NCBI GenBank assembly: GCA_029246865.1 | Contig: JAQWMI010000001.1 | Span: 1 to 45,869, forward strand | DNA from: Alphaproteobacteria bacterium | GTDB lineage: Bacteria; Pseudomonadota; Alphaproteobacteria; HIMB59 | Direction of reading: 5' to 3' | DNA: 45,869 nt | Part shown: positions 9,653 to 45,869 of the stretch, piece by piece | Layout of the letters: each line of letters starts with the position of its first letter | How positions within the stretch are numbered: position 1 is the first letter of the stretch | The notes under the pieces: generated by a model | The model's input: only the letters and a program-made list of their open reading frames with translations | What the model was told of the DNA's origin: nothing | Database searches by the model: none | Program-made: the position numbers and the translations under genes

Positions 9653-9681
9653 AATTGATTTGTTTGGAATATACTACAATT

Positions 9682-10482: not shown

Positions 10483-10526
10483 TCCCAGTTTCATTTTAAA
10501 ATTTATTCTATAAGTTAATCTCATAA

Positions 10527-10748
10527 ATGCCCGTTAAGAAAAAAAAAATATCCAAAAAGGCCTCTCTCAAACCAAAAAAAACTTCAGACCAAAATATCAA
10601 GATTGCTCATTTGGAAAAAAAAATAGACAAACTGTACTCTAGGTTAGACGATCACATAAATAAGATTGATGGTGTTTACGCTAGATTAGAGTCAAATTTT
10701 TCTGGAATTGAAAAATTACTTTCTTTTTTTAGATTAAATAAGCGCTAG
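10527..10748 (+). CDS. Small lysine-rich coiled-coil protein, unknown function
   Basis: 73 aa; basic N-terminus then heptad-like HLEKKIDKLYSRLDDHINKIDGVYARLESN. Confidence 0.55.
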   Translation: MPVKKKKISKKASLKPKKTSDQNIKIAHLEKKIDKLYSRLDDHINKIDGVYARLESNFSGIEKLLSFFRLNKR

Positions 10749-11833
10749 ATTTTTCTTGAATTCAAGTAATTAGAAATATCAAAATCACTAAACGATTTCC
10801 TTTTATCGAGAAAAGTAAAATAACTATTCCTGACTCTGGTAGAAATGTCATCTACTGCGTAATTATCGATAACAGACTTAACATTTTTGTTAGCTTCTAC
10901 AATTATCTCTTCAGGAACTTTTTTAAAAATAACACCAAGAGATTTGAGTTTTTCGATAGCAAATACTTCTTTATTCATAAAATCAGATAACATTTCTTGA
11001 TTCTCTGCCTGACAGGCAGTTTGAATAATCGATTGGTGTTGAGAGGACAGAGAATTCCATTTATCAAGATTAAAACCGAGTGATATTGATACTGTTGGTT
11101 TTTTAAAATCAGGATAGTAACAATATTTAGCTACCTTATAAAAACCAAATGCTAAATCCATGACAGGATTAGACCAGTCTGCAGCATCTATAGCTCCACT
11201 AGTTAGAGAAGGTAATATTTCTCCACCAGGTAGGCTTACTGGAGTTGCACCTAAAGTTTTTAAAAGTTCACCACCAAACCCAGGACTTCTTATTTTAATC
11301 TTAGAAAAATCTTCTAAATTTTTAAATTCATCTTTAAACCATCCAAATAATGTTGTTCCAGTGTTGCCTACAAGAAAATGTTTCATATTAAATTTTTTGC
11401 CAAGCTCATTCCACAATTGTTGCCCTTCATTAGCATATATCCATGAGCTAAATTCATCGGCGGTCATACCAAATGGGACTGATGCAAAAAAGGGATAAGC
11501 TTTGTTTTTTCCAGTCCAATAGAAATCTGCAGAGTGGTACATGTCAGCAGTACCTGATGATGTAGCGTCAAAAACACCAAATGGTGGGACTAACTCTCCC
11601 GCAGAATAAACATTAATATTAATTTCATTATTTGAAAGTGATTGAATTCTATTAGCTAATCTATTGGCTCCAAGACCAATACCAGGAAAATTCGAAGGCC
11701 AAGAAGTAACAAGACTCAATTCCACTTTAGTCTTAGCACTTAATACGGCTGGATGAGAAATTAGAGCTGATGCCGCAACAGGAATAGCAGCTTTTTTTAA
11801 AAACTTTCTTCTATTTAATTTAAATGTTTTCAT
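10745..11833 (-). CDS. TRAP transporter DctP-family substrate-binding protein (TAT signal)
   Basis: NRRKFLKKAAIPVAASAL; GGEILPSLTSGAIDAADWSNPVMDLAFGFYKVAKYCYYP. Confidence 0.9.
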   Translation of the reverse strand: MKTFKLNRRKFLKKAAIPVAASALISHPAVLSAKTKVELSLVTSWPSNFPGIGLGANRLANRIQSLSNNEININVYSAGELVPPFGVFDATSSGTADMYHSADFYWTGKNKAYPFFASVPFGMTADEFSSWIYANEGQQLWNELGKKFNMKHFLVGNTGTTLFGWFKDEFKNLEDFSKIKIRSPGFGGELLKTLGATPVSLPGGEILPSLTSGAIDAADWSNPVMDLAFGFYKVAKYCYYPDFKKPTVSISLGFNLDKWNSLSSQHQSIIQTACQAENQEMLSDFMNKEVFAIEKLKSLGVIFKKVPEEIIVEANKNVKSVIDNYAVDDISTRVRNSYFTFLDKRKSFSDFDISNYLNSRKI

Positions 11834-11965
11834 AAATTTTTATATTCTTTAAAAAACTAACTGAATTATCTTTAAAACTAAAGATACAAGAGCTTATTAA
11901 AAATAAACATATTAGTAGTATTTGAATATTTAAAGCCATATGTATATATACTATATTATATTAAT

Positions 11966-12484
11966 ATGACTGATAGTATTAAGCAATTATTTGACAAATT
12001 ATCACACTTAAACATTGATTATAAGCTATTTGAGCATGAGGCTTTTTATACTGTAGATGAGTCTAGCAAACTTAAATCTGATCTTGATTTAAAAGGAGCT
12101 CACACTAAAAATCTTTTTCTTAGAGATAAAAAAAGAAAAATATTTTTACTATCATGTATGGATAATGCTGATGTTGATTTAAAAATTTTAAAAAATATTA
12201 TTCCCGCCCAAGGTAATCTTTCATTTGGTAATCCTGAACTTCTAAATGACAAACTGGGCGTTAAGCCCGGATCAGTAAGTCCTTATGCATTAATAAATAA
12301 TCATGAAAAAGATGTTAATTTTTATATAGATAAAAATATTTTAAATGAAAATTTGTGTAATTTTCATCCATTGATTAATACTAAAACAATTCAATTAGAA
12401 ACGTCAGATTTTATAAAATTTATACAAGAGATTCATAGTCTTCATGTAATTGATTTTGATAGTTATGAATTAATTAATCTCTAA
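11966..12484 (+). CDS. YbaK/ProX-type prolyl-tRNA (aminoacyl-tRNA) deacylase
   Basis: GAHTKNLFLRDKKRKIFLLSCM; LLNDKLGVKPGSVSPYALINN. Confidence 0.9.
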   Translation: MTDSIKQLFDKLSHLNIDYKLFEHEAFYTVDESSKLKSDLDLKGAHTKNLFLRDKKRKIFLLSCMDNADVDLKILKNIIPAQGNLSFGNPELLNDKLGVKPGSVSPYALINNHEKDVNFYIDKNILNENLCNFHPLINTKTIQLETSDFIKFIQEIHSLHVIDFDSYELINL

Positions 12485-12959
12485 AATTTATATATTGTAG
12501 AGGTAATTTAATATCTGCAGATTTGAGTACATCAATCATATTCTGTAAATCATCAATTTTTTTTCCAGTAATTCTAACTTCATCACCTTGTATAGATGAT
12601 TGTAATTTAAGCTTTGAAGATTTAACAAGATTTGTAACCAATTTCGCATCCTCTTTAGAGATACCATTTAGTATTTCTATATGCTGTCTGATCCTATTGC
12701 CTGATGATGTTTCAGTATCTTTAATATGAATAAATTTAGGATCAATTTTACGACGTACAATATTATTTTTTAGTATATCATTGAACTGACTTAACTTAGT
12801 CATATCAGCCGTATCCATTGTTATAAGAAATTCTTTTCGCTCTATAGTTGAATTTGAATTTTTAAAATCAAATCTATTATCAACTTCTCTTTTTGTATTA
12901 TTAATGGCATTATCAATTTCTTGTAAATCGGGTTTTGAAACTACATCGAAAGAAGGCAT
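12474..12959 (-). CDS. YajQ family nucleotide-binding protein
   Basis: MPSFDVVSKPDLQEIDNAINNTKREVDNRFDFKNS; likely start at 12959 rather than 12977. Confidence 0.92.
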   Translation of the reverse strand: MPSFDVVSKPDLQEIDNAINNTKREVDNRFDFKNSNSTIERKEFLITMDTADMTKLSQFNDILKNNIVRRKIDPKFIHIKDTETSSGNRIRQHIEILNGISKEDAKLVTNLVKSSKLKLQSSIQGDEVRITGKKIDDLQNMIDVLKSADIKLPLQYINFRD

Positions 12960-12963
12960 ATCA

Positions 12964-13839
12964 ATGAATAATACCATTTTTCTCTTTTTAGCAACACTTT
13001 TTTGTTGGTCCCCTACTTGGTATATAATTAAATTTCAACTGGGAGTTGTAGATCCTTTGGTTTCTGTTTTCTATCGCTTTTTCCTTGCTGCAATTATTTT
13101 AATTATTTTTTGTTATTCTAAAAATATACAATTTAAATTTTCTCTAAAAAATCATTTTTATATATGTTTATTAGGAATTTTACTCTTCAATATCAATTAT
13201 GTTCTTTTTTATATTTCCACCCAATATCTCATTAGTGGTTTAGTTTGTTTGTGTTTTTCTGCGCTTCTAATTATGAATATTTTTAATTATTTTATTTTCT
13301 ATAAAGAAAAACCCTCACTTATGACCGTGCTTGGAAGTTCTTTTGGATTAATTGGTTTAGTTATTATATTTAATAAAGAAATATTTAATTTTGATTATAA
13401 AACTGGAACATCCTTTGGTATATTGGTGGGATTAATAGCAACATATATTGCTTCCCTTGGCAATATTGTTTCTATCAAAAACTCTAGAGACAAACTTAAT
13501 GTAATATCAGTCAATGCATTAGCCATGCTTTATGGCTCAATTTCTTTATTTGTTTTCCTATTCATTACAAAATCAAACTTTAATTTTGAAATTACGACTT
13601 CGTATATCAGTTCTTTGCTTTATCTATCTATTTTCGGAAGTGTTTTAGGTTTTAGTTTTTATTTAACACTGATTAGAAATATTGGACCAAATAATGGCTC
13701 CTACATTTCTGTTATTATGCCATTAATGGCTTTAATAATTTCTACTTATTTTGAAAATCTAGAATGGACATATACTCTAATATTTGGAGGTCTTTTAATT
13801 TTAATTGGCAATTTTTTTATTATAAAAAGTTCTAATTAA
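12964..13839 (+). CDS. DMT/EamA family transporter
   Basis: About ten hydrophobic segments, paired EamA-like halves; ORF track start 12904 would extend antisense into yajQ, internal ATG 12964 preferred. Confidence 0.85.
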   Translation: MNNTIFLFLATLFCWSPTWYIIKFQLGVVDPLVSVFYRFFLAAIILIIFCYSKNIQFKFSLKNHFYICLLGILLFNINYVLFYISTQYLISGLVCLCFSALLIMNIFNYFIFYKEKPSLMTVLGSSFGLIGLVIIFNKEIFNFDYKTGTSFGILVGLIATYIASLGNIVSIKNSRDKLNVISVNALAMLYGSISLFVFLFITKSNFNFEITTSYISSLLYLSIFGSVLGFSFYLTLIRNIGPNNGSYISVIMPLMALIISTYFENLEWTYTLIFGGLLILIGNFFIIKSSN

Positions 13840-14483
13840 AAATTTTGTAATGCATCCGACTCATAAATTATTTGTGAGTTACCATTTTTTGCAATAAATG
13901 CCATTGCTTTTGCAACTTGCTTTGAGTTAATAGGTTTAAACTTATTTAAAGGTCCTAGAAAAAGAAAAGACAAGAAGACAAATATTCTTTGACTCAAAAA
14001 CTCACCCAATCTAAATTTAGAACGTTTTCCTAAAAGTATTGAAGGTTTCACAATAGTTAATTGCTTAAAATTCAAACCTTTTAATTTTTCCTCAACTTCT
14101 CCCTTATTTTTTAAGTATGTATTATTTGTATTGGGATTTGATCCTAATGATGAAATGTATAGAAAACAATTAACATTATTTTTTTTCGCTATAGATGCTA
14201 TTTGAACCGGAATATCATATTCTATTCTTCTGTATTCACTTTTATTTGGTGATTGTGGCTTTGTTGTCCCAATACAAAAGAAACAGCGATCTCCTGAAAT
14301 ATTTTTTTTTAATGAACTGATATTAGTTAAATCGTTAACGATAACTTCAAGTTTTTTATGACTTACTGATAAGGGAGATCTTACTACAGCTTTGATTGTT
14401 GAGTATTCATCATCTTGAAGTAAAATATTTAGTAATTGGCTACCAATTAGACCTGTTGATCCAAAAATAATTGCAGTTTTCAA
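13836..14483 (-). CDS. NAD(P)-binding oxidoreductase (atypical SDR, NmrA-like)
   Basis: TAIIFGSTGLIGSQLLNILL; FLYISSLGS. Confidence 0.82.
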   Translation of the reverse strand: MKTAIIFGSTGLIGSQLLNILLQDDEYSTIKAVVRSPLSVSHKKLEVIVNDLTNISSLKKNISGDRCFFCIGTTKPQSPNKSEYRRIEYDIPVQIASIAKKNNVNCFLYISSLGSNPNTNNTYLKNKGEVEEKLKGLNFKQLTIVKPSILLGKRSKFRLGEFLSQRIFVFLSFLFLGPLNKFKPINSKQVAKAMAFIAKNGNSQIIYESDALQNF

Positions 14484-14489
14484 TAATTT

Positions 14490-14927
14490 TTACCATCCAC
14501 CATCATCATCTTTTAGTTTTTGTGAAATAGATTTAGGTAGTTTCTTATTCATAACCTTCCAAATACCATTACCAGAGGCAATAATTTGATTATTACAGAG
14601 AACTTCTGCTTTCATAAAACATAGAGAATTTGTTTTTTTCTCAACTATGGGCTTAATAATTAACTCATCTCCATTTGATGCCGCTTTAATGAAATGGGTA
14701 GTCATAGAAATTGTAACACAAGGGTTTTTTTCAAAAGCTAAATAGGAAGCATTACCCATCGTATTATCCAATAGTGACATTAGGAAACCACCATGTGCGT
14801 AATTAGCTGAATTTAAATGCTTATCTAAAACGGTTGTTTTAAATACAGGATTATTTCCATCCATTTGCATTAATAGATCTCCTAACAAGACGCTGTAATT
14901 AGAATTTGAAATTGACTTCCAAGACAT
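14490..14927 (-). CDS. PaaI family hotdog-fold thioesterase
   Basis: NYAHGGFLMSLLDNTMGNAS; TISMTTHFIKAASNGDELI. Confidence 0.88.
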   Translation of the reverse strand: MSWKSISNSNYSVLLGDLLMQMDGNNPVFKTTVLDKHLNSANYAHGGFLMSLLDNTMGNASYLAFEKNPCVTISMTTHFIKAASNGDELIIKPIVEKKTNSLCFMKAEVLCNNQIIASGNGIWKVMNKKLPKSISQKLKDDDGGW

Positions 14928-14963
14928 TTATGACTTTATAGACTAAAGAAATGAATTTTTAAA

Positions 14964-16289
14964 ATGATTTATGATTTAATTGTAATTGGTGCTGGTTCGG
15001 GCGGAGTTAGATCTGCAAGAATAGCTGCCACGCATGGGGCTAAGGTTGCAATAATAGAAGGGAGTAAGTTTGGGGGCACATGTGTGAATTTAGGCTGCGT
15101 ACCAAAAAAACTTTTTTATTACGTCTCTCAATTCAATAAAGATCTGGATAATTACGCCTCTTATGGATGGAATGTAAAAGAAAAGAAATTAAATTGGAAA
15201 AAATTTATTACTAAAAAAGATAATGAAATCAATCGATTAAATAGCATTTATAAGAACTTACTTCTTAAAAATAAAGTTACGATCATAAATGGATTTGCTA
15301 GTTTTATAGACAAAAATACCGTTAAAGTAGGAAATAAAAAATTTAAATCTAAGAAATTTATTATTGCTACTGGAAGCAAGCCTAGAGTTTTAAATAACTT
15401 TCAAAAATTTGTTCACTCCAGTGATGATATTTTTAAAATACCTACGTTACCCGAAAGAATGTCGATACTTGGAGGAGGATACATAGCTATTGAATTTGCA
15501 TGTATATTTTCAAATTTAGGTGTCAAAGTTGACCTTCTCTATAGAGGAAATAAAATATTAAAAGAATTTGATCAGGATTTAACTGAAAAACTTCAGGAAA
15601 ATATGAAAAACTCAAAAATTAAGATACACCTAAATGTAGAAATTAAAGAGATATCTAAGTCAGACAAAAAGAATCTTGTTATTAAAACAAATAATAAAAA
15701 AATTAAAACTAACTATATTTTGTCGGCTATTGGTAGAGAACCTAATGTTGATAAATTAAACCTTTCCGAAGCTAAAGTTCAAATTAATGATGATGGTTCT
15801 ATAAAAGCAAATAGAGATTTTCAAACAACAAATGAAAATATTTATGCTATAGGCGATGTTTTAAATTATTTAAATCTTACACCTATGGCTATAAGACAAG
15901 GGCATTATATCTCTGAAAAAATTTTTAATAAAAAAACTTTAGAATATGATTTTAAGAATGTTCCCACAGCAGTTTTTTCATCTCCTCAGCTAGCTAGTGT
16001 CGGACTAACATTGGATGCGGCAAGATTAAATAGAATGGAATGTTACGAATTAAAAACTGAATTTAAATCAATGAAAAAAAGCTTTAAAACGAATATTAAA
16101 GATACTTTTTATAAGCTTGTTGTTGAAAAAAAATCACAAAAAGTAATCGGAGCACATATTTTAAGCGATGATGCTGGAGAGCTGATTCAGTTATTAGCTA
16201 TTTTAATTGTTTCTGGCGCAACATTAGATGATTTTAAAAAAACTGTACCAGTCCACCCTACTTCAAGTGAAGAGTTTATTACAATATGA
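14964..16289 (+). CDS. gor: Glutathione-disulfide reductase
   Basis: GGTCVNLGCVPKK redox-active cysteines; HPTSSEEF C-terminus. Confidence 0.9.
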   Translation: MIYDLIVIGAGSGGVRSARIAATHGAKVAIIEGSKFGGTCVNLGCVPKKLFYYVSQFNKDLDNYASYGWNVKEKKLNWKKFITKKDNEINRLNSIYKNLLLKNKVTIINGFASFIDKNTVKVGNKKFKSKKFIIATGSKPRVLNNFQKFVHSSDDIFKIPTLPERMSILGGGYIAIEFACIFSNLGVKVDLLYRGNKILKEFDQDLTEKLQENMKNSKIKIHLNVEIKEISKSDKKNLVIKTNNKKIKTNYILSAIGREPNVDKLNLSEAKVQINDDGSIKANRDFQTTNENIYAIGDVLNYLNLTPMAIRQGHYISEKIFNKKTLEYDFKNVPTAVFSSPQLASVGLTLDAARLNRMECYELKTEFKSMKKSFKTNIKDTFYKLVVEKKSQKVIGAHILSDDAGELIQLLAILIVSGATLDDFKKTVPVHPTSSEEFITI

Positions 16290-18040
16290 GCAATAGATCA
16301 TTTAAATTTCAAAGCAATGACTCTAATAGCTTTATACCTGAGTATATGGGTATGAACGGTTGTATAGCCACTCATTCCAATTTATCTGCGCAAACAGCAT
16401 TCATGATAATGAATAACGATAATGGGAATGCTTTTGATGCTGCGGCTGGTGCTATGTTAGTTGAGTCATTAGTGAATCCGCAGATGTTTAGTCTTGGAGG
16501 TGAGAGTATTATGATTATTAAACCTTATAACAAGAATGTAACAGTACTCAATGGGAATACAAAATCTCCTAAAAATTTCAATTTTACAAACCTCTTAATG
16601 CAAGGTTACCGAGAAGTGCCAGATAACGGAATTCATTCATCTGGAGTACCTGGTGTTTTTTCATCTATTATTAATTTATTAAAAGCTCATGGGACCTTAT
16701 CTTTCAATGAAATATCAAAATATGCTTATGAATATGCAAAAAATGGCTTCCCCATTCATCCAGGATTAATTTTTCAAGAGGGTAATGGTCTAAAAGACCT
16801 CCAACAAAAAATAAGAAAAGATTTTCCAAATACACAAAATCTATATTTTAAAAATAGAAAATTACCTGATCCTTATTCAATTCAAAAAAATATAAAATTT
16901 GCAGATTTTTTAAATTTCATCAATAATCATGAAAAAAAACTAAAATTAAAAAGAATAGATGCTTTAGATAAATTACATCAATGTTTTTATAAGGGTGATA
17001 TTGCAAATACTATTATCAAATATTCAGATCAAAAAAATGGATTTTTAAAAAAAAGTGATTTTGAAGATTTTTCTGCTTTTTTTGAAAAGCCTGTAAGTAA
17101 GACTTTTGGCAATTATACAATTTATAAAACTGATACTTGGGGTCAAGGAGTTACAAGTTTGATGATGATGGCAATGGCAAAAAGTAAAAAAATATACTCC
17201 CTTGATAATGAAAAAAATATTCATCATTTTATCGAAATACTAAAATTAGTTTTTGCTGATCGGGAGATGTATTTTTCAGGAAATCCAAAAAATACTGTAA
17301 GAGCCCAAGATCTTATTCAAGATAATTATTTAAATAAAAGAATAAAGTTAATTAGCGAGAGAGCATCGGAAATTTTAACTCCAGGTGACCCTTTAAATGG
17401 TAATTCTTTAATGCCTATTAGTAATGAAATTAAACCCTGGGGCTCTGGAACTGTTCACATTGATATAATTGATAAAAAAGGGAATGCTATATCTTGTACC
17501 CCAAGTGGTGGTTGGTTAAAAGCCAATGACGTGGTTGAAAATTTAGGATTTCCATTAAACAACAGACTAATGACCTTTTACATGAGCAAACCGGAACACA
17601 TTAATTTTGCTCTACCTGAAATGCAGCCGAGAACCACCTTAAGCCCTACTTTATGTCTAAATAAAAAAAATAAAGAAATTTTAGTGTGTGGAACAATGGG
17701 CGGTGATGCACAAGATCAATGGCAATCACAATTTCTAATGAATTATATATTTAATCAAAAGTCGCTTACAGATGCATTAAATATGCCGAGAATATCCTCC
17801 GAACATTTTCCTGCTTATTTTCATCCACATGATGGAAATATTAAACAAGTTCTCCTCGAAGAAAGGCTTGAAAATTTTGTCAAACCACTCAAAAAAAGAG
17901 GACATAAAGCTATATCTACAACTGATTGGAGTGAAGGTTTTTTATTGTGTGCTAGAAAAAAAGATAAAATTTTTGATGCATATGCTGATATTAGAAGTTA
18001 TAAAAGTCAAATATTTCAAGCTCAGGCACTTGCATGGTAA
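16286..18040 (+). CDS. Gamma-glutamyltransferase-like Ntn hydrolase
   Basis: GNAFDAAAGAMLVESLVNPQMFSLGGE; GSGTVHIDIIDKKGNAISCTPS around probable catalytic Thr. Confidence 0.85.
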   Translation: MSNRSFKFQSNDSNSFIPEYMGMNGCIATHSNLSAQTAFMIMNNDNGNAFDAAAGAMLVESLVNPQMFSLGGESIMIIKPYNKNVTVLNGNTKSPKNFNFTNLLMQGYREVPDNGIHSSGVPGVFSSIINLLKAHGTLSFNEISKYAYEYAKNGFPIHPGLIFQEGNGLKDLQQKIRKDFPNTQNLYFKNRKLPDPYSIQKNIKFADFLNFINNHEKKLKLKRIDALDKLHQCFYKGDIANTIIKYSDQKNGFLKKSDFEDFSAFFEKPVSKTFGNYTIYKTDTWGQGVTSLMMMAMAKSKKIYSLDNEKNIHHFIEILKLVFADREMYFSGNPKNTVRAQDLIQDNYLNKRIKLISERASEILTPGDPLNGNSLMPISNEIKPWGSGTVHIDIIDKKGNAISCTPSGGWLKANDVVENLGFPLNNRLMTFYMSKPEHINFALPEMQPRTTLSPTLCLNKKNKEILVCGTMGGDAQDQWQSQFLMNYIFNQKSLTDALNMPRISSEHFPAYFHPHDGNIKQVLLEERLENFVKPLKKRGHKAISTTDWSEGFLLCARKKDKIFDAYADIRSYKSQIFQAQALAW

Positions 18041-18807
18041 AAACAAAATCAAAAATCGAAGACATTGTTGATGTCGTTAAAAAACTCAGAAATCCAAAAG
18101 ATGGTTGCCCTTGGGATATAAGTCAAAATTCTAAGTCATTAGCTAAATATACATTAGAAGAAGCTTATGAAGTCGTAGAGGCAATAGAGCAAAATAAAAC
18201 AGACGAACTTAAAGATGAACTAGGTGATTTACTCTTACAGGTTGTTTACCACTCAGTAATTTCAGAAGAAAAAAAACAATTTAATATCAATGATGTAATT
18301 GCTTCTAGTGTAAAAAAAATGAAACTCAGACATCCTCATATTTTTCTAAATAATAAAAATATTAAAACAATTAGTGATGTAAATGATTTTTGGGAATACC
18401 AAAAAAAAATTGACCGAAAAAAAAAAGGAGCAACTTCTGTAATTGATGGGATTAGTGAAACTCTTCCAGCTGTCACAAGAGCTGTAAAAGTTCATAAAAG
18501 AGCTGCAAAAGAAGGTTTCGATTGGCCTACTACTGAAGCTACAATTAAAAAAGTCAAAGAAGAGTTAAAAGAGTTAGAGGTCGAGATTAAGAATAGAAAT
18601 AAAAGTAAGATTGAAGAAGAATTAGGTGATTTATTTCTTTCTTGTATTAATTTATCAAGAAAACTAAAATTGGATACAGAGACTGTTATTAGAAAATCTA
18701 ATAGGAAGTTTGATAAAAGGTTTAGAAAAATGGAAAAAATAATGAATAAAAATAATTTGGAGTGGAATTTAAAAAATTTGGAGAAGATATGGCAAAAAGT
18801 AAAATAG
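18034..18807 (+). CDS. mazG: Nucleoside triphosphate pyrophosphohydrolase MazG
   Basis: LRNPKDGCPWDISQNSKSLAKYTLEEAYEVVEAI; duplicated ELGDL motifs. Confidence 0.95.
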   Translation: MVKTKSKIEDIVDVVKKLRNPKDGCPWDISQNSKSLAKYTLEEAYEVVEAIEQNKTDELKDELGDLLLQVVYHSVISEEKKQFNINDVIASSVKKMKLRHPHIFLNNKNIKTISDVNDFWEYQKKIDRKKKGATSVIDGISETLPAVTRAVKVHKRAAKEGFDWPTTEATIKKVKEELKELEVEIKNRNKSKIEEELGDLFLSCINLSRKLKLDTETVIRKSNRKFDKRFRKMEKIMNKNNLEWNLKNLEKIWQKVK

Positions 18808-20054
18808 TAATTTTTTTTTCATTTCTGTTCTTTACTTTCAACACAGTAAATAGTTACGAAATTGAAGAGCTAATTAATATACTAAAAACAAAAAATCAAA
18901 ATGAATCAGTTTTTTTTTATGACCAAAAGATCAATGAATTAGATATTAAAAATAGCTACTCTTCTTTTTATCCGACAATTTCATATTCAAATAAAACTTC
19001 TGATACAACCACAAAAACCACCTCTTCAAGTTCTATAAGCTCTAATACCCATAGTTTAAGCTTAGATCTTAATCTTTATAACGGAGGTTACAGAGATCAA
19101 AATATTGTTGAAATTGAAAATAAAAATAAGGCTAACATGGCATTAAATACATATAAAAAAAGTTTATTAATAAAAGAATTAATACTTGGTTATTATAACT
19201 TAAAATCACTGCATAATCTCAAAGCAACATCTAAAAATAATATTAACTTTTATTCAAATAAGTTAAAAGAAGCTGAAATTTTATTTGAAGCTGGAAGATT
19301 ATCAAAAATTGATCTTTTGAATTTTAAGAGTGCTAAAATGAATTCTGAGAATAACTTATTTGATATTAACAACGAGATTGAAAATCTAACCCTAGAACTC
19401 TCAGATTTATTAGATATGGAAATAAAAGTTAATGAAATCAAACTTGACTACGATGTCGATATACCCTCCTCTTTAATTCAGATGAGAACATTATCCCATT
19501 TAATGAGTTCTTCGTATGGTCAATACCTTACCTTTATGGAAAAAACTTACTTACCAGAATTAGAAAAAAACAAAATTGATTTAATGCCTAGTGTAGATCT
19601 AGATTATGATTACTCAAATACTGATAAATTTAGTTCTACAATTGGTAAAAGATCATCTTCTTCAATATCACTAACACTTACAGTTCCTTTATTTAATGGT
19701 TTTAAAAAAGAAAATAATTTTGATATTTCAAAATATGAATATGAAAAAAAACTATTAGATCACAAGGATATGGTTCAAAAGTTTTATACAGACTACAAAA
19801 TTAGTTTTAATAATTATCAAAATATAACAAAAAAAATTATTTCACAGAGAGTAATAGTAGAAAGTAACCAGCTTAAATATGAGGGTAGTAAAATTCTTTA
19901 TGAAGCTAATCGTGTTGATGTAAATGATTTGATTGACTCTCAGGCATCATTAGATCAATCAATCAATACTATGAATCAGTTAGAAATTGATCTTAAAAAT
20001 ATTTCTTTAAGTATTTTAATTTATAACGGTAATTTTTCATCTATAGTTAATTAA
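18789..20054 (+). CDS. TolC-family outer membrane efflux-like protein
   Basis: Signal peptide MAKSKIVIFFSFLFFTFNTVNS; repeated helical hairpins; VNDLIDSQASLDQS; start at 18789 preferred over 18762. Confidence 0.78.
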   Translation: MAKSKIVIFFSFLFFTFNTVNSYEIEELINILKTKNQNESVFFYDQKINELDIKNSYSSFYPTISYSNKTSDTTTKTTSSSSISSNTHSLSLDLNLYNGGYRDQNIVEIENKNKANMALNTYKKSLLIKELILGYYNLKSLHNLKATSKNNINFYSNKLKEAEILFEAGRLSKIDLLNFKSAKMNSENNLFDINNEIENLTLELSDLLDMEIKVNEIKLDYDVDIPSSLIQMRTLSHLMSSSYGQYLTFMEKTYLPELEKNKIDLMPSVDLDYDYSNTDKFSSTIGKRSSSSISLTLTVPLFNGFKKENNFDISKYEYEKKLLDHKDMVQKFYTDYKISFNNYQNITKKIISQRVIVESNQLKYEGSKILYEANRVDVNDLIDSQASLDQSINTMNQLEIDLKNISLSILIYNGNFSSIVN

Positions 20055-34819: not shown

Positions 34820-35071
34820 TTAATTACTATTATTTTTATCAACTTCATCTGAGTTAATTTCTATAATTAAATTTTTAAGATCTTCTGGGTTACTTAGCTC
34901 TTCTTCGATAGATGTATGATCATTTTTTTCTACCCTATAAATCGCTAAAATAAACCAAACAAAAGCTACTACTGATATTAAAAACCATAAACCTTCAGAG
35001 CCTGAAAAAATATATATAGAATTTATTTCACTCAAATCAATTAACCAGTTATTTAAATCAGATCTTGTCAT
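34820..35071 (-). CDS. Small single-TM protein downstream of Amt
   Basis: LWFLISVVAFVWFILAIYRVEK; overlaps the Amt gene by 14 bp. Confidence 0.65.
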   Translation of the reverse strand: MTRSDLNNWLIDLSEINSIYIFSGSEGLWFLISVVAFVWFILAIYRVEKNDHTSIEEELSNPEDLKNLIIEINSDEVDKNNSN

Positions 35072-36461
35072 GATTGTTCCTTGTTAATTCACTAATTATT
35101 TCTGTTTCTGCTTCAATTAAATCTTGATTTTGTATGAATTTATCTCTTTTAAAAGATATGTCCTCACCGGTCAGCTGTATAGTTGTAGAAGTTTCTAAAA
35201 TATTAAAAAACTTTAAAACTTTTGTTGATAGGAAACCTGGAATGAAACCTAAAATCCAAAAGAGAATTAATGCGCCTGCAAATTGACCAAATGGATTAAT
35301 ATGAACAGAGCCTTCGTAATAAGAGGATGGATATCCCCACAATAAAATACCCGAGATAATTAAAGACCAAAATCCTGCAAATCCATGCATGGCAACTAAG
35401 CCTGTTATATCATCAATTTTATATCTTTCTTCTAAGTATGCATGTGATTTTATAACAACAAAAGTAATTATCATTCCAATTATAAAGGATTGAAGGGGAA
35501 AATAATAGTCTGCTCCTGAAGAAACAGCTATTATTCCAATAATACCTCCTGAAAACATAAATTTAGGATCACGAAATTTTACAATAGAAGAAATAATTAT
35601 ACCTCCTGATAAAGCTAGAAGTAAATTTATCATTGAACCTGAAAGAGAAATTGGAGTTCCAAAAACATTTAATACTTCCATATAGTTTCCGGTTTCATTG
35701 TTTATCTCATAGAAGATTAAAATAGAACTGAGAGATAGGCCTATAAATCCAAATAAGATTAAAAAATTACCTAATATTGAATTTGTGTGACTATGTATAG
35801 GAAATGATCTAGGTTTTTGAAAATCATTAAATTTAGCTAATCTAGATTTAATTTGGTATAAGACCCCTAAAGCAAAACCTCCCAAAAGAGTGTGGAAAGC
35901 ACCAGCTCCAAAAGCATCATGATATCCAAAAACTCTAGCCATCCATCCAGAATTTGACCAAGACCAAGAGTATGCAATAGGCCAAAAAACCGATCCAAGA
36001 ATAATTACAAGAATTAAGTAAGCGCCAATTCTTATTCTTTCTAATAAAGAAGAACCAAGGAATAAAACTATAGACCAAGATAAAAGTATAAAAGTTATAA
36101 ATTTAATATTTGTTAATCTATAAAAAGATAAATCTGGATTTAAATTCAAGCTTGGTCCCATATTTGAACTCCAAGGTAAAGCAAAATAGAACTGACTAAA
36201 ACCTCCTGTAATACCAGGTCCATTTGTAAAAGCAAAACTTATAGCCCATCCAAATAAGTAAGTTGAAATAATAATAATAGGTAGTGATAAAAATAATATT
36301 ATTATGGATGAAATTGAGAATTTTTCTCTAGAAATGCCATAAGATCTTAAAATTACACCTATAGGTAAAAAGACTAAAAATAAAATTACAATTAAAGAAA
36401 AAATATCATTTAAAAAATAGTCTTTTGTATTAAGAATTATTTCATTCATTTTCATTACCAA
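35058..36461 (-). CDS. Amt-family ammonium transporter (divergent)
   Basis: Eleven or so TM segments; DAFGAGAFHTLLGG and DDITGLVAMHGFAGFW match the Amt twin-His regions. Confidence 0.85.
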   Translation of the reverse strand: MVMKMNEIILNTKDYFLNDIFSLIVILFLVFLPIGVILRSYGISREKFSISSIIILFLSLPIIIISTYLFGWAISFAFTNGPGITGGFSQFYFALPWSSNMGPSLNLNPDLSFYRLTNIKFITFILLSWSIVLFLGSSLLERIRIGAYLILVIILGSVFWPIAYSWSWSNSGWMARVFGYHDAFGAGAFHTLLGGFALGVLYQIKSRLAKFNDFQKPRSFPIHSHTNSILGNFLILFGFIGLSLSSILIFYEINNETGNYMEVLNVFGTPISLSGSMINLLLALSGGIIISSIVKFRDPKFMFSGGIIGIIAVSSGADYYFPLQSFIIGMIITFVVIKSHAYLEERYKIDDITGLVAMHGFAGFWSLIISGILLWGYPSSYYEGSVHINPFGQFAGALILFWILGFIPGFLSTKVLKFFNILETSTTIQLTGEDISFKRDKFIQNQDLIEAETEIISELTRNNHDKI

Positions 36462-37650
36462 ACTTTTTTATCCATTTACCTCTTTTTAGATATTTAGATC
36501 TATCACTTTTAATAAAATTTTTAATAGAAACTCTATCTTCATTTTCTTTTTTATTTGGACTCCAATTAAAAATATTTGACAGTAGTCCTATTAAACCATT
36601 TGGTAAAAATATCATTGCAAAGAGTATAATTAGTGAAAGGCCTGCAACTCTTAACTGGCCAAAATCTCTTAAAATAGTATCAGCTAACATTAATGAAGCA
36701 GCTCCTATTAGAGGTCCCCAGTTAGTGCCTCTTCCCCCAACAACAATCATAGATAAAAGAAAAAGAAGCAAACTTAATGATAAAACATTAGGACCCATTG
36801 TAGTTTGTAAACCTGCAAACACTCCTCCTGCTAAACCTGTAAAAATGCCTGAAACAGTAAATACAATTAGTTGATACTTAATTCTATTAACTCCCCTAGA
36901 TCCTGCTGCTATTTCATTGTCTCGAATTGATCTAAAAGTTGAACCTAATGGACTATAAATTACAAATAAGGCAAATAATGTACTTAATACAAGTAGTGTT
37001 AAAGATAAATAATACTCACCGTAGATTTTTCCTTTATATCCTAATAATTCTTTAAAACCAAAGTTACCATAACCAAATAAGCCTTTAGCACCGCCAGTGA
37101 AATTATAGCAAATCAAATCTTTTGTAACAAAACAATCAACATCACTAACAATGAGTTTTTGTATAACTATAGCTATAGCTAGTGTCATTATTGCGATGTA
37201 TGGGCCTCTTAATCTAATTATAGTAGCCCCTAATAAAAAACTAAATACAACAGCTGCCAAAGCCCCGACAGGAAGTGCTGCCCATAAATTCCAACCCATA
37301 TATAAAGCAATCATTGAAGTAATATATCCACCCACTGCAAATACAGCCATATGACCTAAAGTAAAGATTCCCGCTATACCAAAAATTAAATTCCATTGTG
37401 TAACAACGGCAGCCCAAATAAAAAATAAAACTATCTGACTTAACAAGTATTTTCCTGCTCCAAATGCTGGAAATATAAGAGCTAAAGCAAGAAGTATCAT
37501 GCCTATCCAAAAATCTTTCCAAACGTTGGATGTTCTGTTATCAATTTTTATAAATTCTTTAGTACTATGACTTGTGCCCCAAAAAAAAGCTATAATAGCA
37601 ACAAGAATTCCTAGAACAGCAATTAATATTGAAATTTGAGAAATTGACAT
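36442..37650 (-). CDS. Branched-chain/urea/amide-type ABC transporter permease (LivM/UrtC-like)
   Basis: FTLGHMAVFAVGGYITSMIA; LRGPYIAIMTLAIA; GGRGTNWGPLIGA. Confidence 0.9.
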   Translation of the reverse strand: MSISQISILIAVLGILVAIIAFFWGTSHSTKEFIKIDNRTSNVWKDFWIGMILLALALIFPAFGAGKYLLSQIVLFFIWAAVVTQWNLIFGIAGIFTLGHMAVFAVGGYITSMIALYMGWNLWAALPVGALAAVVFSFLLGATIIRLRGPYIAIMTLAIAIVIQKLIVSDVDCFVTKDLICYNFTGGAKGLFGYGNFGFKELLGYKGKIYGEYYLSLTLLVLSTLFALFVIYSPLGSTFRSIRDNEIAAGSRGVNRIKYQLIVFTVSGIFTGLAGGVFAGLQTTMGPNVLSLSLLLFLLSMIVVGGRGTNWGPLIGAASLMLADTILRDFGQLRVAGLSLIILFAMIFLPNGLIGLLSNIFNWSPNKKENEDRVSIKNFIKSDRSKYLKRGKWIKKFGNENE

Positions 37651-37652
37651 AA

Positions 37653-38531
37653 TTAAACTCTATTTACAACTTCCTTACCAAAAAAACCATTCGGCTTAAA
37701 GAGTAAAACAATTATTACAAAACCTAACATGGAAGGAAATCCATACCGAGAGCCAAATAGATAATTAACGCCCATTTCTAAAAAACCTAAAGCAAAAGCC
37801 ATAAAAATACCTGCTCTCAAGTTTCCTAAACCTGCAACAATTAAAATTATAAGAGCCTTTACGGTAGCGTCTCCACCAACTGAAGGAAATACTTGAGAAG
37901 CTCCTGTTACCAGAACGCCTGTGATCGCAGCTATACTTCCATAAAGCATCATCGCTTGAGCAAATGACTTCTGAACATTTATTCCCATAAGTTTAGCTGC
38001 ATCTGGATTTTGAGAAACCGCTCTAATAACCTGACCTAATTTACTTTTTGACATTATTAAAGCCATAATCACCATTAAAATGATAACCATTATGAATGTA
38101 AAAATAGTTTGATAAGGCAAAACTACTCCAATAATTTTTAGTCCACTTGTGAACTGGAAAGGCTGTCTTAAAGCTTCACCACCCGCTAAATTTAGAAAGG
38201 TATTTTCCCCTAAGGCTGCTATAGCTACTGAAGCTATAATGATATTTACTGAAAAATTTTGATTGGCATAAATATGTCTAATAACAAGGTGATAATAAAT
38301 ATATCCCATTACTAGGCCAGATAAAAAAGCAAGAGGTAAAACAAAAAACCAACTAGCATCTATAACAGACATACAAAAGTAAGCTACATAACCACCTAGA
38401 GCAATAAAAGTAGTGTGTGCTAAATTTAACATTCCCATTGTTCCCCATAACAACGATAAAGCTAAAGCTCCAACCGCATACATGGAACCAACAGCAAGTC
38501 CGCTAAATAAAATTTGTAAAAAAATATCCAT
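37653..38531 (-). CDS. Branched-chain/urea/amide-type ABC transporter permease (LivH/UrtB-like)
   Basis: GLAVGSMYAVGALALSLLWGTMGMLNLAHTTFIALGGYVAY. Confidence 0.92.
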   Translation of the reverse strand: MDIFLQILFSGLAVGSMYAVGALALSLLWGTMGMLNLAHTTFIALGGYVAYFCMSVIDASWFFVLPLAFLSGLVMGYIYYHLVIRHIYANQNFSVNIIIASVAIAALGENTFLNLAGGEALRQPFQFTSGLKIIGVVLPYQTIFTFIMVIILMVIMALIMSKSKLGQVIRAVSQNPDAAKLMGINVQKSFAQAMMLYGSIAAITGVLVTGASQVFPSVGGDATVKALIILIVAGLGNLRAGIFMAFALGFLEMGVNYLFGSRYGFPSMLGFVIIVLLFKPNGFFGKEVVNRV

Positions 38532-39248
38532 TTATATTCCTAAGTAGGTGTTTAACATATCTTCATTTTTCTTAAGTTCTGAAGGTGTTCCACTCCAAAT
38601 AAATTCACCATCATCTAATAAGTAGATTATATCTGCTATATTTTGCAATCTAGTAGGATTTTCTTCAATTACTAAAAGAGTTGGACTTATTTGTCTAAGT
38701 CCAGCTATAATTTCATAAACTTGATCAATAATTTTAGGAGCAAGTCCTAATGAGGGCTCATCTAATATCATCATGTAACCTTCACTCATAAGACCTCTAC
38801 CTATACTCAGCATTCTTCTCTCACCACCTGATAAGGTTCTTGTAATTTGTTTTCTTCTCTCAAGAAGTCTCGAAAAAATTCCATAGACTTTTTCTAATCT
38901 TCTACTGAGTTCTTCTTTATCAAAAATTAAATATCCACCAAGCATTAAATTTTCTTCAACAGTCATATCAGGAAATATTAAATCTCCTTGTGGAATTTGA
39001 ATTAAACCTTTTTCAACTCTCTCATGAGCAGGTAAATTATCAATAGATGTATTTTTTAAAAAAACTCTTCCCTCCCAAGTACTTATTAGCCCAGATAAGG
39101 CTTTAACTAAAGTTGATTTACCATGACCATTTGGACCAATAATACCAACAACAGAGCCCTCCTCAACAACCATTGAAAGATTTTTCAAAACTTTCCTTCT
39201 TCCATAACCAGTAGTGAGGTTTTCAATTCTTAAAGACTCTGTGGGCAT
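38532..39248 (-). CDS. ABC transporter ATP-binding protein (LivF/UrtE-like)
   Basis: GIIGPNGHGKSTL; LSGGERRMLSIGRGLM; MILDEPSLGLAP. Confidence 0.93.
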   Translation of the reverse strand: MPTESLRIENLTTGYGRRKVLKNLSMVVEEGSVVGIIGPNGHGKSTLVKALSGLISTWEGRVFLKNTSIDNLPAHERVEKGLIQIPQGDLIFPDMTVEENLMLGGYLIFDKEELSRRLEKVYGIFSRLLERRKQITRTLSGGERRMLSIGRGLMSEGYMMILDEPSLGLAPKIIDQVYEIIAGLRQISPTLLVIEENPTRLQNIADIIYLLDDGEFIWSGTPSELKKNEDMLNTYLGI

Positions 39249-39255
39249 AATTTAA

Positions 39256-40599
39256 CTAACTTGTTTGCTCCTTATCTTCAAGTTTCCATGAAAGTGCTTT
39301 TTCTAGCTTTTCTATATCAATCTGACTCACACCACTCTCGTTATTGGCATGTAATAATTCTAAAGCTGCTTTTTCAATTAAATTAGATCTATCTTTGTTA
39401 TTGTCAGAGGTGATTGTCTTTAATGAAGGAATTCTTTTTCTTAATTCTGATGTCTCTTCGAGCATTCGTTCAAGCAACTCAAAATGTTGATTTAAATTTG
39501 AAGACTCACTATGAGCTTTGATAAGGCCTTCAGCTGCTCTAGATATTTTAGTTGATTTTTTTTTATCAGTTTTTTGGTTTAAGATTTTTTCCAAATTCAT
39601 ATAATCAATTGGATAAATTTTTCTTGATTTTTTTTGATCAACTAAATTTCTAGAAATTTTCTCTACTGAAATAGACCATTCATCCATAATTTCATTTTCG
39701 ATATTTGTATCTGCTAATGGTATTTCTTTTTTTAGTTTTTTAGAAGCTTGCATCTTTTCAAAATTTGCTGAAGTACCCTCACCTAAATACACATCAACAA
39801 CTGTTTTATCTTCAGCCATTTTTTCAGGCAGACCCTCATAGAGTTTTTCGCCGTGGTTCATAATCATAACTTCATCTGATAAGCCAACTAAAAAACGCAT
39901 AACATGCTCGATCAAAATAATAGTCATTTTTTTTTCTTGTGTAAGCCTACTTACAACTTTTTCAACTTTTTCAATTTCATTTGGAATTAAACCTCCAACT
40001 GGCTCATCTAAAAGCAATAATTTAGGATTAGTTGATATGGCCGAAGCTATCATCAATAATTTTAACTCTAAATGAGTTAAACTAGATACTACTTTATCTT
40101 TGATATTTTCAAGACCAACAAAATTTAACGCATGATCAGCATTGTTAATATCTTGATTGCTAAAATATAGGCTTGGGATTTCATTATTTTGTATACCGTG
40201 TTGGATGCCTATTAAAACATTTTCTCTTACTGTCATAGTCTCAAATGCTGCATTTAGTTGAAAAGTTCTAGCAATTCCCGCATGACATATTTTATATGAG
40301 TTTTCATTAGTGATATTTTGTTTATTAAAAATAATTTCACCATTATTCACTTTTTGAACTCCTGAAATTAAATCAAATAAAGTTGTTTTACCTGCTCCAT
40401 TAGGTCCTCCAATTCCATACACAATACCCTCAGGTATTTCAAAACTTAATTTATTGACAGCACTAAGTGCCCCAAAAGATTTAGTCACTCTATGACAAGT
40501 TAAAATCGAGTTGTCATTTGTAGACTTAGTCTCTTCTTTTGGTTTAAAAAAATTTAATCTCTTTTTGACATTAATAGTTTTAAAAGATGTTTCTTTCAT
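39256..40599 (-). CDS. ABC transporter ATP-binding protein (LivG/UrtD-like) with long C-terminal extension
   Basis: GGPNGAGKTTLFDLISG; LLLLDEPVGGLIP; signature region reads LTHLELKLLMIAS; about 170 extra C-terminal residues. Confidence 0.88.
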   Translation of the reverse strand: MKETSFKTINVKKRLNFFKPKEETKSTNDNSILTCHRVTKSFGALSAVNKLSFEIPEGIVYGIGGPNGAGKTTLFDLISGVQKVNNGEIIFNKQNITNENSYKICHAGIARTFQLNAAFETMTVRENVLIGIQHGIQNNEIPSLYFSNQDINNADHALNFVGLENIKDKVVSSLTHLELKLLMIASAISTNPKLLLLDEPVGGLIPNEIEKVEKVVSRLTQEKKMTIILIEHVMRFLVGLSDEVMIMNHGEKLYEGLPEKMAEDKTVVDVYLGEGTSANFEKMQASKKLKKEIPLADTNIENEIMDEWSISVEKISRNLVDQKKSRKIYPIDYMNLEKILNQKTDKKKSTKISRAAEGLIKAHSESSNLNQHFELLERMLEETSELRKRIPSLKTITSDNNKDRSNLIEKAALELLHANNESGVSQIDIEKLEKALSWKLEDKEQTS

Positions 40600-40676: not shown

Positions 40677-42113
40677 TTACTTAAACCAAGATGGAACTTG
40701 ATATTTACCAACTACATATGGTTCAGGATAAATAACAACTGGATCTTTTGTTTTATCTTGAATTTGTTGTAGTGTTTGAGGATGACCTAGTGAAGGGTCT
40801 CTCGTCCATGTTGGATAAGGCATAGTTGCTTGATGTTCAGGATGATACCAATAAGATCCATTTGGACCTCTATAAGTAAAATTCTTGAGTGCCCATGCAA
40901 TTTTTCTATTTTGTTTATCATTACCCGGTTCACCAGTACCACCAGCAATTGCAGCAGCAAGAGCAAAGTGGTGCATAGGTCCGTAACTTAAACCACCTGG
41001 TTGATAATCGGCATCATCACCAAATTTTTTCTTATGAGCATTTACATAAGATCTGGAATAATCATCCGATAATAATCCATCAACAGTTCCTGTCATTGCT
41101 CCAACAGAAGCGTCACCAGCTATATCTCTGAAAGATTTTAATAGTGCACCATACTGATAATAAAAAAGACTATTAGTTGGATTTTCAACGAATTGAACTT
41201 GGCACTGTGCAATATCTCCAGCAAAGAAGTGAGTATTAGCAATCGCACCAGGATTGATCTTTCTAACTTTTGAAAGCACTGGACCCCATTCTGTTGTAGG
41301 AGTTTGAACTACTTCATCAAAGGCAACCTCAAATCCAGCTCCAGGAGCTGCATCTTTCATAGCATTAGCTACAACAACTGAATACGGTATTGAACCAATT
41401 ATTAGAGCTAACTTATTATTTGGCATATCCCAAACACCTTGATCTCTCAAGTCTGCAAGAGCGGTGACGTAACCTGCACCATACCAATACTCAGCAGGAT
41501 CAGCCATAAAACATCCAAAGTATCTATCTGGATTAGAGGCAACAGTGTTATGATGTTGAATAGCTGTATTTACATGCATATAGATAATACCTGCATCTGC
41601 AATAGGTTCATATTCTGCATCGTTTGGGCCAATGTTGTAACCATTAATAATTGCATGAACTTCATGCTTATCAATTAGATAATTTGCGGCCGCCGTAACT
41701 TCTGCAGCACTCATATCTTTTGTGTCAACATAATGATTTTCTAAAGGTCTACCAAGAATTCCTCCGTAATCATTTATTTCTTCACAAGCAAGTTCGATAC
41801 CTCTTTTGTATCCAATACCATCAGCTGCTGCCCATCCTGTCAAAGGATACATTGAGCCAATCGGTATAGGCTTACCTGATGCAGCGGAAGCAGTAGAAAC
41901 ACCAGCATTCAAAGCAGCAAGAGCGCCTAAACCTAAACCGGCACCACCACCAAGTTGCAATAATTTTCTTCTTGTAATACCTTTATCTTCATCACTGACA
42001 CCATCACTTACTTCAGATAGTTTAGCCTTACCTTCTTTATCAGCAATTAATGAAGCTGTGTTGTATGCCTTGTGAGATTTCCAGGCATTTCTAATTTTGT
42101 CTTTAATCGACAT
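40677..42113 (-). CDS. Amide/urea/branched-chain-type ABC substrate-binding protein (TAT-like signal)
   Basis: TRRKLLQLGGGAGLGLGALAALNAG; IPIGSMYPLTGWAAADGIGYKRGIELACEEINDYGGILGRPLE. Confidence 0.88.
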   Translation of the reverse strand: MSIKDKIRNAWKSHKAYNTASLIADKEGKAKLSEVSDGVSDEDKGITRRKLLQLGGGAGLGLGALAALNAGVSTASAASGKPIPIGSMYPLTGWAAADGIGYKRGIELACEEINDYGGILGRPLENHYVDTKDMSAAEVTAAANYLIDKHEVHAIINGYNIGPNDAEYEPIADAGIIYMHVNTAIQHHNTVASNPDRYFGCFMADPAEYWYGAGYVTALADLRDQGVWDMPNNKLALIIGSIPYSVVVANAMKDAAPGAGFEVAFDEVVQTPTTEWGPVLSKVRKINPGAIANTHFFAGDIAQCQVQFVENPTNSLFYYQYGALLKSFRDIAGDASVGAMTGTVDGLLSDDYSRSYVNAHKKKFGDDADYQPGGLSYGPMHHFALAAAIAGGTGEPGNDKQNRKIAWALKNFTYRGPNGSYWYHPEHQATMPYPTWTRDPSLGHPQTLQQIQDKTKDPVVIYPEPYVVGKYQVPSWFK

Positions 42114-44135: not shown

Positions 44136-44564
44136 ATGTCCAGAAAGCATAAAAATCCAGACACCTCTATTCATAGAAATGACAGTTTTGCTGCTGTAGA
44201 TGATTATGATACTAGAATGTACATATTGCCTTATCTTATTGATGAAGATTCAAGAAAAGAAATTATAGCAGAACACGAAGCTAATCCTTTATACTCAGGA
44301 ACTAAACCTGGAGAACCTGCGCCAATGTACAGCAAGGCTTTAGTTAGATTAATAGATAAACTGAGAGTAACTCCACAAAAGAATAAATTAACAATAATAG
44401 AGTCTAAACCTTGGGAAGAATATAAAATAGGAATTTTACCTGGTAACAGAGGTGGAAAAATACAAATCACAGATGAATCGTATGTATCAAGAGAAAAAGC
44501 AGAACATGCAATTTTTCTTAAGAGGTTAAAGGTACTTTTAGAACAATATGGAATTAATCTATAA
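44136..44564 (+). CDS. N,N-dimethylformamidase small subunit-like protein
   Basis: EHEANPLYSGTKPGEPAPMYSKALVRLIDKLRV...WEEYKIGIL...YVSREKAEHAIFLKRLKVL resembles the remembered DMFase small-subunit pattern; followed by large subunit. Confidence 0.7.
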   Translation: MSRKHKNPDTSIHRNDSFAAVDDYDTRMYILPYLIDEDSRKEIIAEHEANPLYSGTKPGEPAPMYSKALVRLIDKLRVTPQKNKLTIIESKPWEEYKIGILPGNRGGKIQITDESYVSREKAEHAIFLKRLKVLLEQYGINL

Positions 44565-44593
44565 CATGTCACTTTATAAGGAGTCATTTAAAA

Positions 44594-45869
44594 TTGTCTG
44601 ATAATAATAAACAAGAATCGATGTTAAGAATAACTGGTTACTCAGATAAATTTTCTGCTAGACCCGGTGAAGAAATTTCTTTTTATGTAAATTCTGAATT
44701 CGATGAACAATATCAAGCTGATATTGTTAGACTAATTCATGGAGATACTAATCCTGAAGGTCCCGGCTACAAAGAAGAATTAATACATTCAAATATAAGC
44801 GATATGCACGCTGGAAAAAACCAGCAAATTTATGGAGGCAGTTATATTTTTGTTCCCAATAACGAAATATTTAATGTTAGTAGTTTTACTCTATGTGCTT
44901 ATATCTACCCTACTACTCCTTATGTTGATGTTGAGGGTGTTGAGGTTGGAGAGCAAGCTATACTTTCAAAATGGGATGCAGAAAACGAAACTGGATATGG
45001 CTTGTTTGTTAATTCTGATGGAGAACTATGCCTTAGAATAGGTCATGGAAAAGGCAAAGTTGAAGAATTTTCAACAGGCAAACCTTTGTATAGAAAAGTT
45101 TGGTATAAGATTGGAGCTAGCTTTGATGTTAATACTGGAAAAGTTTTTGTTTTTCAAACACCGTATGTGACTCATACTAATAGTGGTCATGGTATGAGTA
45201 TGTTGCATCCAAAAGAGGATACTTATGGAAGTTATCATGGCACAAGTCTTATGGGTGGACCTGCCATTAATGACTGCCCTTTTTTAATGGCATCAAGTAC
45301 ATTAAAATCTAATTCAGGTAGATATTTAACTGGCGGTCACTTCAATTATCTTGATAAGCCCCATGAAATACCAATCCATACCCATAAATATAATGGTAAA
45401 ATTGAAAGACCTAAGATTGCTAATAAAGCTCTAGAACTTCATGAAATTGAATTATTACTAAGTTGTCAAGGTATTGAAAATATACCCAATGAATTAAAAG
45501 AAGTTGTTATTGGCGCTTGGAATTTTAATGCAAATATAACTCCTAATGCATCTTCAACAAAAATTGTTGATGATAGCTTATGTAAGATAGATGGATGTGG
45601 GGTTAATTTACCAGTAAGAGGAGTACCTGGTTTTAATTGGAGTTCAGATTACATGAGCTTTCTTCATGGCCCTCAAGAGTACGGGGCGATTCACTTTCAT
45701 GATGAATCGGTAGATGACGCTAGATGGGATGTTTCTTTTAAATTTAAAGTTCCTGAAAATCTCAAGTCGGGTGTTTATGCTGCCAGACTAAGAATTAACA
45801 GACTTACCGACTCTGAAAATGAAGATTATATTCCCTTCTTTATTAGACCAGCTAAAGATGCAAAAAAAG
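44594..45869 (+). CDS. N,N-dimethylformamidase large (beta) subunit-like protein, 3'-truncated by window end
   Basis: Open frame from TTG 44594 (aaggag 44577-44582) to window end, 425 codons: MLRITGYSDKFSARPGEEISFYVNSEFDEQYQADIVRLIHGDTNPEGPGYKEE...; LamG-like segment; not listed in ORF track. Confidence 0.78.
   Translation, partial: MSDNNKQESMLRITGYSDKFSARPGEEISFYVNSEFDEQYQADIVRLIHGDTNPEGPGYKEELIHSNISDMHAGKNQQIYGGSYIFVPNNEIFNVSSFTLCAYIYPTTPYVDVEGVEVGEQAILSKWDAENETGYGLFVNSDGELCLRIGHGKGKVEEFSTGKPLYRKVWYKIGASFDVNTGKVFVFQTPYVTHTNSGHGMSMLHPKEDTYGSYHGTSLMGGPAINDCPFLMASSTLKSNSGRYLTGGHFNYLDKPHEIPIHTHKYNGKIERPKIANKALELHEIELLLSCQGIENIPNELKEVVIGAWNFNANITPNASSTKIVDDSLCKIDGCGVNLPVRGVPGFNWSSDYMSFLHGPQEYGAIHFHDESVDDARWDVSFKFKVPENLKSGVYAARLRINRLTDSENEDYIPFFIRPAKDAKK

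Follow-up and report, generated by a model that had tools for sequence, protein, structure and literature searches.

N,N-Dimethylformamidase (DMFase) is known from bacteria that degrade solvents. Genes of this family in a lineage of marine type raise the question of what role the family had before N,N-dimethylformamide (DMF) was manufactured. The window analyzed here, a stretch of 45,869 nucleotides that represents an entire contig (C1) of a 1.29-Mb HIMB59 genome in 53 contigs, ends inside such a gene pair. We asked what these genes encode, which genes accompany them, and which substrate the encoded enzyme is likely to hydrolyze.

The gene pair at the contig end and its complete orthologs

A preliminary description of this DNA, made from the sequence alone, had reported a small (alpha) subunit ORF followed by a large (beta) subunit frame that begins at a TTG codon with an aaggag 11 nt upstream; the coordinates, translation, and aaggag were all reproduced (Table 1). 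The large frame is missing from the ORF list solely because it is open at its 3′ end. It matched the DMFase large subunit (PDB 6lvb_A) at an E value of 1.7e-57 and scored above the cutoffs of the Pfam models DMFA2_C (3.6e-13) and Laminin_G_3 (1.4e-7), in agreement with its description as a DMFase large subunit with a LamG-like part. The small ORF, described as the other DMFase subunit, gave no Pfam or NCBIfam match. It is nevertheless homologous to DMFase alpha: phmmer aligned it with the small subunit 6lvb_B (E = 4.8e-7), an alignment with 10 relatives contained an invariant EH...HA.F..R pattern, and a Foldseek search with its AlphaFold (AF2) model returned only DMFase small subunits below 0.001 (6lvb_B, 6lvv_B, and 6lvd_B; E values of 4e-6 to 6e-5, TM scores of 0.59 to 0.74). 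The case for membership of the pair in the DMFase family is strong.

The beta fragment in the window comprises an Ig-like domain, a pentraxin/LamG-like domain, and the start of domain III; it stops at the equivalent of Paracoccus aminophilus DmfA2 residue 384, short of the iron ligands. A search for its C-terminal half in the remaining contigs of the same assembly found nothing, so the truncation reflects the end of the assembly. Searches of named genomes retrieved three orthologs of the window type (L008, L009, and L010 in Table 1). The TTG start is retained in L008, and an ATG occupies that place in L009. Residues 13 to 807 of L008 align end to end with residues 5 to 760 of 6lvb_A (E = 1.5e-165), spanning all three domains. 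Truncation by the contig end could suggest that the large frame is spurious, frameshifted, or a pseudogene; we rule this out, with negligible residual probability, on the strength of intact orthologs of 803 to 807 aa that are 96, 81, and 60% identical to the frame over its whole length.

Table 1. Features of the window, complete orthologs of the window-type large subunit, and the second DMFase locus of the same genome
Feature	Location	Strand	Remarks
Putative Amt-family ammonium/methylammonium transporter, divergent	35058..36461	-	Ammonium_transp 2.5e-37; 34% identical to DMFA1 Amt
Second putative ABC importer permease	36442..37650	-	56% identical to DMFA1 cassette permease
Putative ABC importer permease, UrtB-like	37653..38531	-	UrtB best NCBIfam model, below cutoff; 58% identical to DMFA1
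Putative ABC importer ATPase, LivF/UrtE-like	38532..39248	-	NCBIfam models; 61% identical to DMFA1
Putative ABC importer ATPase, UrtD/LivG-like, C-terminal extension	39256..40599	-	UrtD best NCBIfam model, below cutoff; 49% identical to DMFA1
Putative ABC importer substrate-binding protein (SBP)	40677..42113	-	Peripla_BP_6, Peripla_BP_5; divergent from flotillin; 73% identical to DMFA1
Flotillin (SPFH), 577 aa	42387..44120	+	Pfam Flot 6e-34, Band_7 2e-13; 15 nt upstream of small subunit
DMFase-family small (alpha) subunit, 142 aa	44136..44564	+	
DMFase-family large (beta) subunit, partial	TTG 44594 to window end	+	425 codons without a stop
L008 large subunit	L008 (PAHR01000049), 8610-11033		Complete, 807 aa; 95-96% identical to window
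L009 large subunit	Single-cell genome AG-313-A14		81-82% identical to window
L010 large subunit	Gammaproteobacteria bacterium Ga0077536		60-61% identical to window
Flotillin-associated rhodopsin (FAR) cluster	L003 (G000:C14), 8457-19026		Complete

In Paracoccus DMFase, iron is bound by Y399, Y440, and E521, and H519 is catalytic (PMC7686228). All four residues are kept in every complete row of a 12-row alignment, and the complete orthologs contain both the C-terminal domain and the two-tyrosine, one-carboxylate ligand set that the preliminary description had singled out for checking beyond the contig. L008 keeps N547 as well. The window type has N at this position, where the FAR paralog of the same genome (see below) and P. 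aminophilus pAMI5 have D; at position 693, the marine rows have F and both Aminobacter rows have Y. Compared to the characterized DMFase, positions 438, 443, 447, and 518 near the iron site differ, with the changes S438G, H443Y, and S518H. The window's own iron ligands lie off the contig, and their presence is expected from the 96% identity to L008. Given the homology and the kept ligands, the chemistry to be expected, by extrapolation from the Paracoccus enzyme (PMC7686228), is hydrolysis of an amide at a mononuclear Fe3+ site.

The importer cassette and a second, rhodopsin-linked copy

The preliminary description had recognized the gene pair and overlooked its surroundings: the two genes are part of a cassette of ten, which comprises a flotillin, the DMFase genes, a urea/amide-type ABC importer, and an Amt-family transporter. 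Since every NCBIfam Urt equivalog model fell below its cutoff for the importer proteins, we do not claim urea as the ligand and describe a putative, related importer. The Amt protein is 31% identical to the other Amt of the genome. In a set of 52 genomes of the family, all of which fall in one genus, three carry the DMFase and the flotillin of the window type; the SBP occurs in the same three, and none of the three proteins is found in any other genome of the set. Orthologs of the window flotillin at 83 to 92% identity were confined to the two other cassette genomes, the remaining congeneric flotillins being 42 to 45% identical. A phylum-level search of 399 genomes (E ≤ 1e-200) retrieved no further member outside the genome itself; the cassette is therefore rare in that sample. 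In AG-313-A14, the region 3′ of the cassette (L009, 13126-20565) encodes GcvT-like proteins, one of them a DUF1989 fusion, as well as an ABC transporter apparently of the glycine-betaine type, which suggests a one-carbon/methylated-amine island.

The same genome carries a second, complete DMFase pair on contig C14, within a FAR cluster that encodes, in order, a rhodopsin, a flotillin, a hypothetical protein, an alpha/beta hydrolase, a sodium:solute symporter, DMFase alpha and beta, a third gene, a small ORF, and a metallo-beta-lactamase-fold hydrolase. A DMFase gene was already listed in the published FAR cluster of HIMB59/Pelagibacterales (PMC10308929). Of the 52 congeneric genomes, 43 encode a DMFase of the FAR type, versus 3 for the window type; this lineage of small marine-type genomes has a near-universal copy in a rhodopsin/flotillin cluster and a rare copy in an importer cassette. 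The two types share a flotillin in their clusters and fall within one three-gene clade. FAR beta is 52% identical to the window beta, and in place of the ABC importer and Amt, its cluster encodes a rhodopsin and a sodium:solute symporter. We rejected the idea that the window cassette is the FAR cluster itself, as a divergent SBP gene lies upstream of its flotillin and the rhodopsin is found on C14 instead. The FAR flotillin has been reported as the sole flotillin copy in the genome (PMC10308929); the present genome encodes two, 35% identical to each other, and departs from that statement.

Two further FAR-type loci were observed. In Ga0077536, FAR-type and window-type three-gene sets lie in tandem with genes resembling type-III glutamine synthetase (GS-III) on the flanks (L010, 6179-12837). 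In another genome, a FAR-type large subunit gene (G008:C125:16598-18958) contains two in-frame TAA codons and is either a pseudogene or affected by sequencing error.

A third gene directly after beta

The preliminary description had proposed a two-subunit N,N-dimethylformamidase. While the family assignment stands, the two-subunit composition is probably incomplete, as an alpha-like third gene follows beta. An ORF of 119 to 177 aa directly follows beta in L008, L009, L006, L007 (where it was recognized by HMM), both L010 cassettes, and the FAR clusters. No complete member of the clade lacks it next to beta. Of the 44 genomes in the genus that carry a DMFase, 43 have it, and in the single exception (G004) the DMFase frame is truncated close to where a contig ends; none of the 8 genomes without DMFase has it. 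In a maximum likelihood tree, the rows with a third gene next to beta form one clade (support, 100/99) that splits into the window type (100/100) and the FAR type (94/95), with Paracoccus, Methylobacterium, pAMI5, and other rows outside. Long-branch warnings concerned outside rows only, not the three-gene clade.

The third gene belongs to no Pfam family. Compared using hhalign, its profile matched the small-subunit profile with a probability of 92.8 and a score of 48.3 at 7% identity; with reversed columns the score was 12.1, and none of 100 column shuffles exceeded 19.5. Smaller alpha panels matched more weakly (in-clade, 67%; FAR, 83%; two classical-type alphas alone, 16%). Single ORFs recognized by both the alpha and the third-gene HMMs (L063, L007, L067, L069, and L076) link the two families, and the models of the third protein and the window alpha have a common order of helix, three strands, and helix. 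A fold search with the AF2 model of the third protein yielded no significant match, which we attribute to the low confidence of that model (pLDDT, 61). One of the doubly recognized ORFs lies in an alphaproteobacterium (L067; G213:C12, 6688-14017) beside several adjacent DMFase-large-like genes.

We consider it likely from these profile comparisons that the third gene is homologous to alpha, i.e., a divergent alpha paralog. Alternatively, it could encode an unrelated small protein, such as a regulator, beside a plain alpha2beta2 enzyme, a reading that bears on the subunit claim only and is compatible with any substrate. The missing Pfam match, the 7% identity, the negative fold search, and the weak match to the two classical-type alphas would fit an unrelated protein; the margin of the profile score over all shuffled and reversed controls, the doubly recognized ORFs (L063, L007, L067, and L069), and the shared order of secondary structure elements speak against it, and we hold it to be improbable. 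With less confidence than in the homology, we propose that the third, alpha-like protein is probably a physical part of the enzyme. The gene thereby offers a direct prediction on enzyme composition: a recombinant enzyme produced without it may be inactive or altered.

Proposed pathway, competing substrates, and known systems

The reading we favor, with moderate confidence, is that the cassette serves to import a small amide, probably one of the formamide type, and to hydrolyze it in an iron-dependent reaction. The ABC importer would take in the amide, most likely formamide, N-methylformamide, DMF, or a natural N-substituted formamide. Its C-N bond would then be hydrolyzed by the DMFase-family enzyme, putatively composed of alpha, beta, and the second alpha-like protein encoded right after beta, at a mononuclear Fe3+ center that two Tyr residues and a Glu coordinate, assisted by His519. 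Formate could enter formyl-tetrahydrofolate via the genome's formate-tetrahydrofolate ligase (FTHFS), and ammonia or a methylamine could be converted to gamma-glutamylmethylamide and N-methylglutamate by a GS-III and glutamate-synthase-like genes. Amt may retain or recapture the amine, and the flotillin may hold the importer and the enzyme at the membrane. The nearest characterized enzyme, the kept F693, the urea/amide type of the importer, and the genomic routes for the products all support a substrate of the formamide type. The GS-III model TIGR03105 scored over its cutoff at C45:29396-30679, and the genome also encodes a glutamate-synthase-type three-gene set and FTHFS. The classical formamidase FmdA/AmdA was searched for in the genome and is absent. 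No clear dimethylamine monooxygenase was found in the genome; a 236-aa HODM_asu-like ORF (G000:C34:4701-5411) covers only part of the model and is possibly a remnant or a divergent oxidative N-demethylase. SAR11 likewise is without a dimethylamine monooxygenase (PMC5520151).

Amide- or amine-related neighbors also occur in relatives, as with the GS-III-like genes around the two tandem cassettes of Ga0077536. On P. aminophilus pAMI5 (L014, 4106-10343), a DMFase-like pair is accompanied by a divergent SBP, a histidine kinase, and a response regulator, with an AmiS/UreI transporter downstream. On plasmid 2 of the haloarchaeon Halalkalicoccus jeotgali (L013, 3166-8286), a pair adjoins a primary-amine oxidase, its small subunit being annotated as an inner-membrane translocator.

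Two other substrates have to be weighed against this reading. That the enzyme is a true N,N-dimethylformamidase with DMF as its physiological substrate is suggested by its nearest characterized relative, the Paracoccus DMFase, all of whose tested active-site residues are kept, and by a syntenic cassette in Aminobacter niigataensis DMFA1, a strain absent among the top matches listed for a pAMI2-type DmfA2 search. The strain name is a hint of DMF use, and only a hint; a literature search found no paper on this strain, including its phenotype. DMF, however, is an industrial chemical, and the genomes with the cassette are single-cell and metagenome genomes of marine-type lineages. For the Paracoccus enzyme (parDMFase) itself, N-methylformamide is the better substrate, by ~24-fold in catalytic efficiency (PMC7686228, Table 1), and the pAMI5 pair discussed below, the substitutions near the iron site, and the lack of a clear dimethylamine monooxygenase (Dmm) argue further against DMF. 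We therefore regard DMF as an unlikely physiological substrate.

That the enzyme is instead an acylase or amidase with this fold, for a larger N-acyl compound such as an amino acid or amine derivative, appears comparably doubtful. N-Acetyl-(R)-beta-phenylalanine acylase (PDB 8huy/8i5a) matches L008 at 3e-109, the importer ATPases score on Liv amino-acid models too, and the solved structure closest to the SBP carries the annotation of a putative branched-chain amino acid ABC protein. Yet the match to DMFase is better by ~185 bits, an alpha subunit is present as in DMFase, and the marine orthologs retain F693, the residue that makes the DMFase pocket narrower. The pAMI5 pair has not been linked to DMF use (PMC4543880) and, at ~40% identity to DmfA2, is no closer to it than the window type is. 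With this pair and the acylase at a similar distance, the name N,N-dimethylformamidase presumes a substrate. Returning to the formamide-type reading, its most far-reaching form would be a membrane-scaffolded amide-scavenging machine of streamlined ocean bacteria, in which an alpha-beta-alpha′ iron amidohydrolase with its own flotillin, dedicated importer, and Amt acts on a natural N-substituted formamide of seawater, the rhodopsin-linked version being a sister module; we offer this as a long shot. In either form, the SBP together with the enzyme provides a concrete route to the natural substrate.

The closest counterpart of the whole cassette is found on plasmid p1 of A. niigataensis DMFA1 (NZ_CP132959.1), where all cassette genes are present and syntenic at 34 to 73% identity, in the order flotillin, small subunit, large subunit, third gene, SBP, two ATPases, two permeases, and Amt. 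Across Alphaproteobacteria, the rare copy is shared with this Aminobacter plasmid. The SBP is the best conserved of the cassette proteins, and GC content is 57% in the DMFA1 cassette versus 32% in the window. In DMFA1, the genes are codirectional, and a response regulator, a histidine kinase, and a second SBP lie upstream, a regulatory layout that the one on pAMI5 resembles. In Aminobacter MD1, a metformin degrader that lives on dimethylamine (PMC9699525), a small plasmid encodes the enzyme together with a LuxR regulator; no flotillin accompanies them, so a flotillin is not obligatory.

With DmfA1A2 (Paracoccus sp. DMF parDMFase, PDB 6lvb/6lvv; P. aminophilus pAMI2), the window type shares the alpha-then-beta order and full-length homology, and its marine orthologs have Y399, Y440, E521, H519, N547, and F693 in common with it. 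It differs in its overall sequence (~41% identity), in the changes at positions 438, 443, 447, and 518, and in the additional alpha-like third gene. DmfA1A2 is surrounded by LuxR and a transposon, whereas the window type is surrounded by a flotillin, an ABC importer, and Amt. N-Acetyl-(R)-beta-phenylalanine acylase, of the same large-subunit family, is the weaker match and has another substrate. The enzyme family and one copy type in marine genomes were known before; new here is the rare, importer-linked three-gene form.
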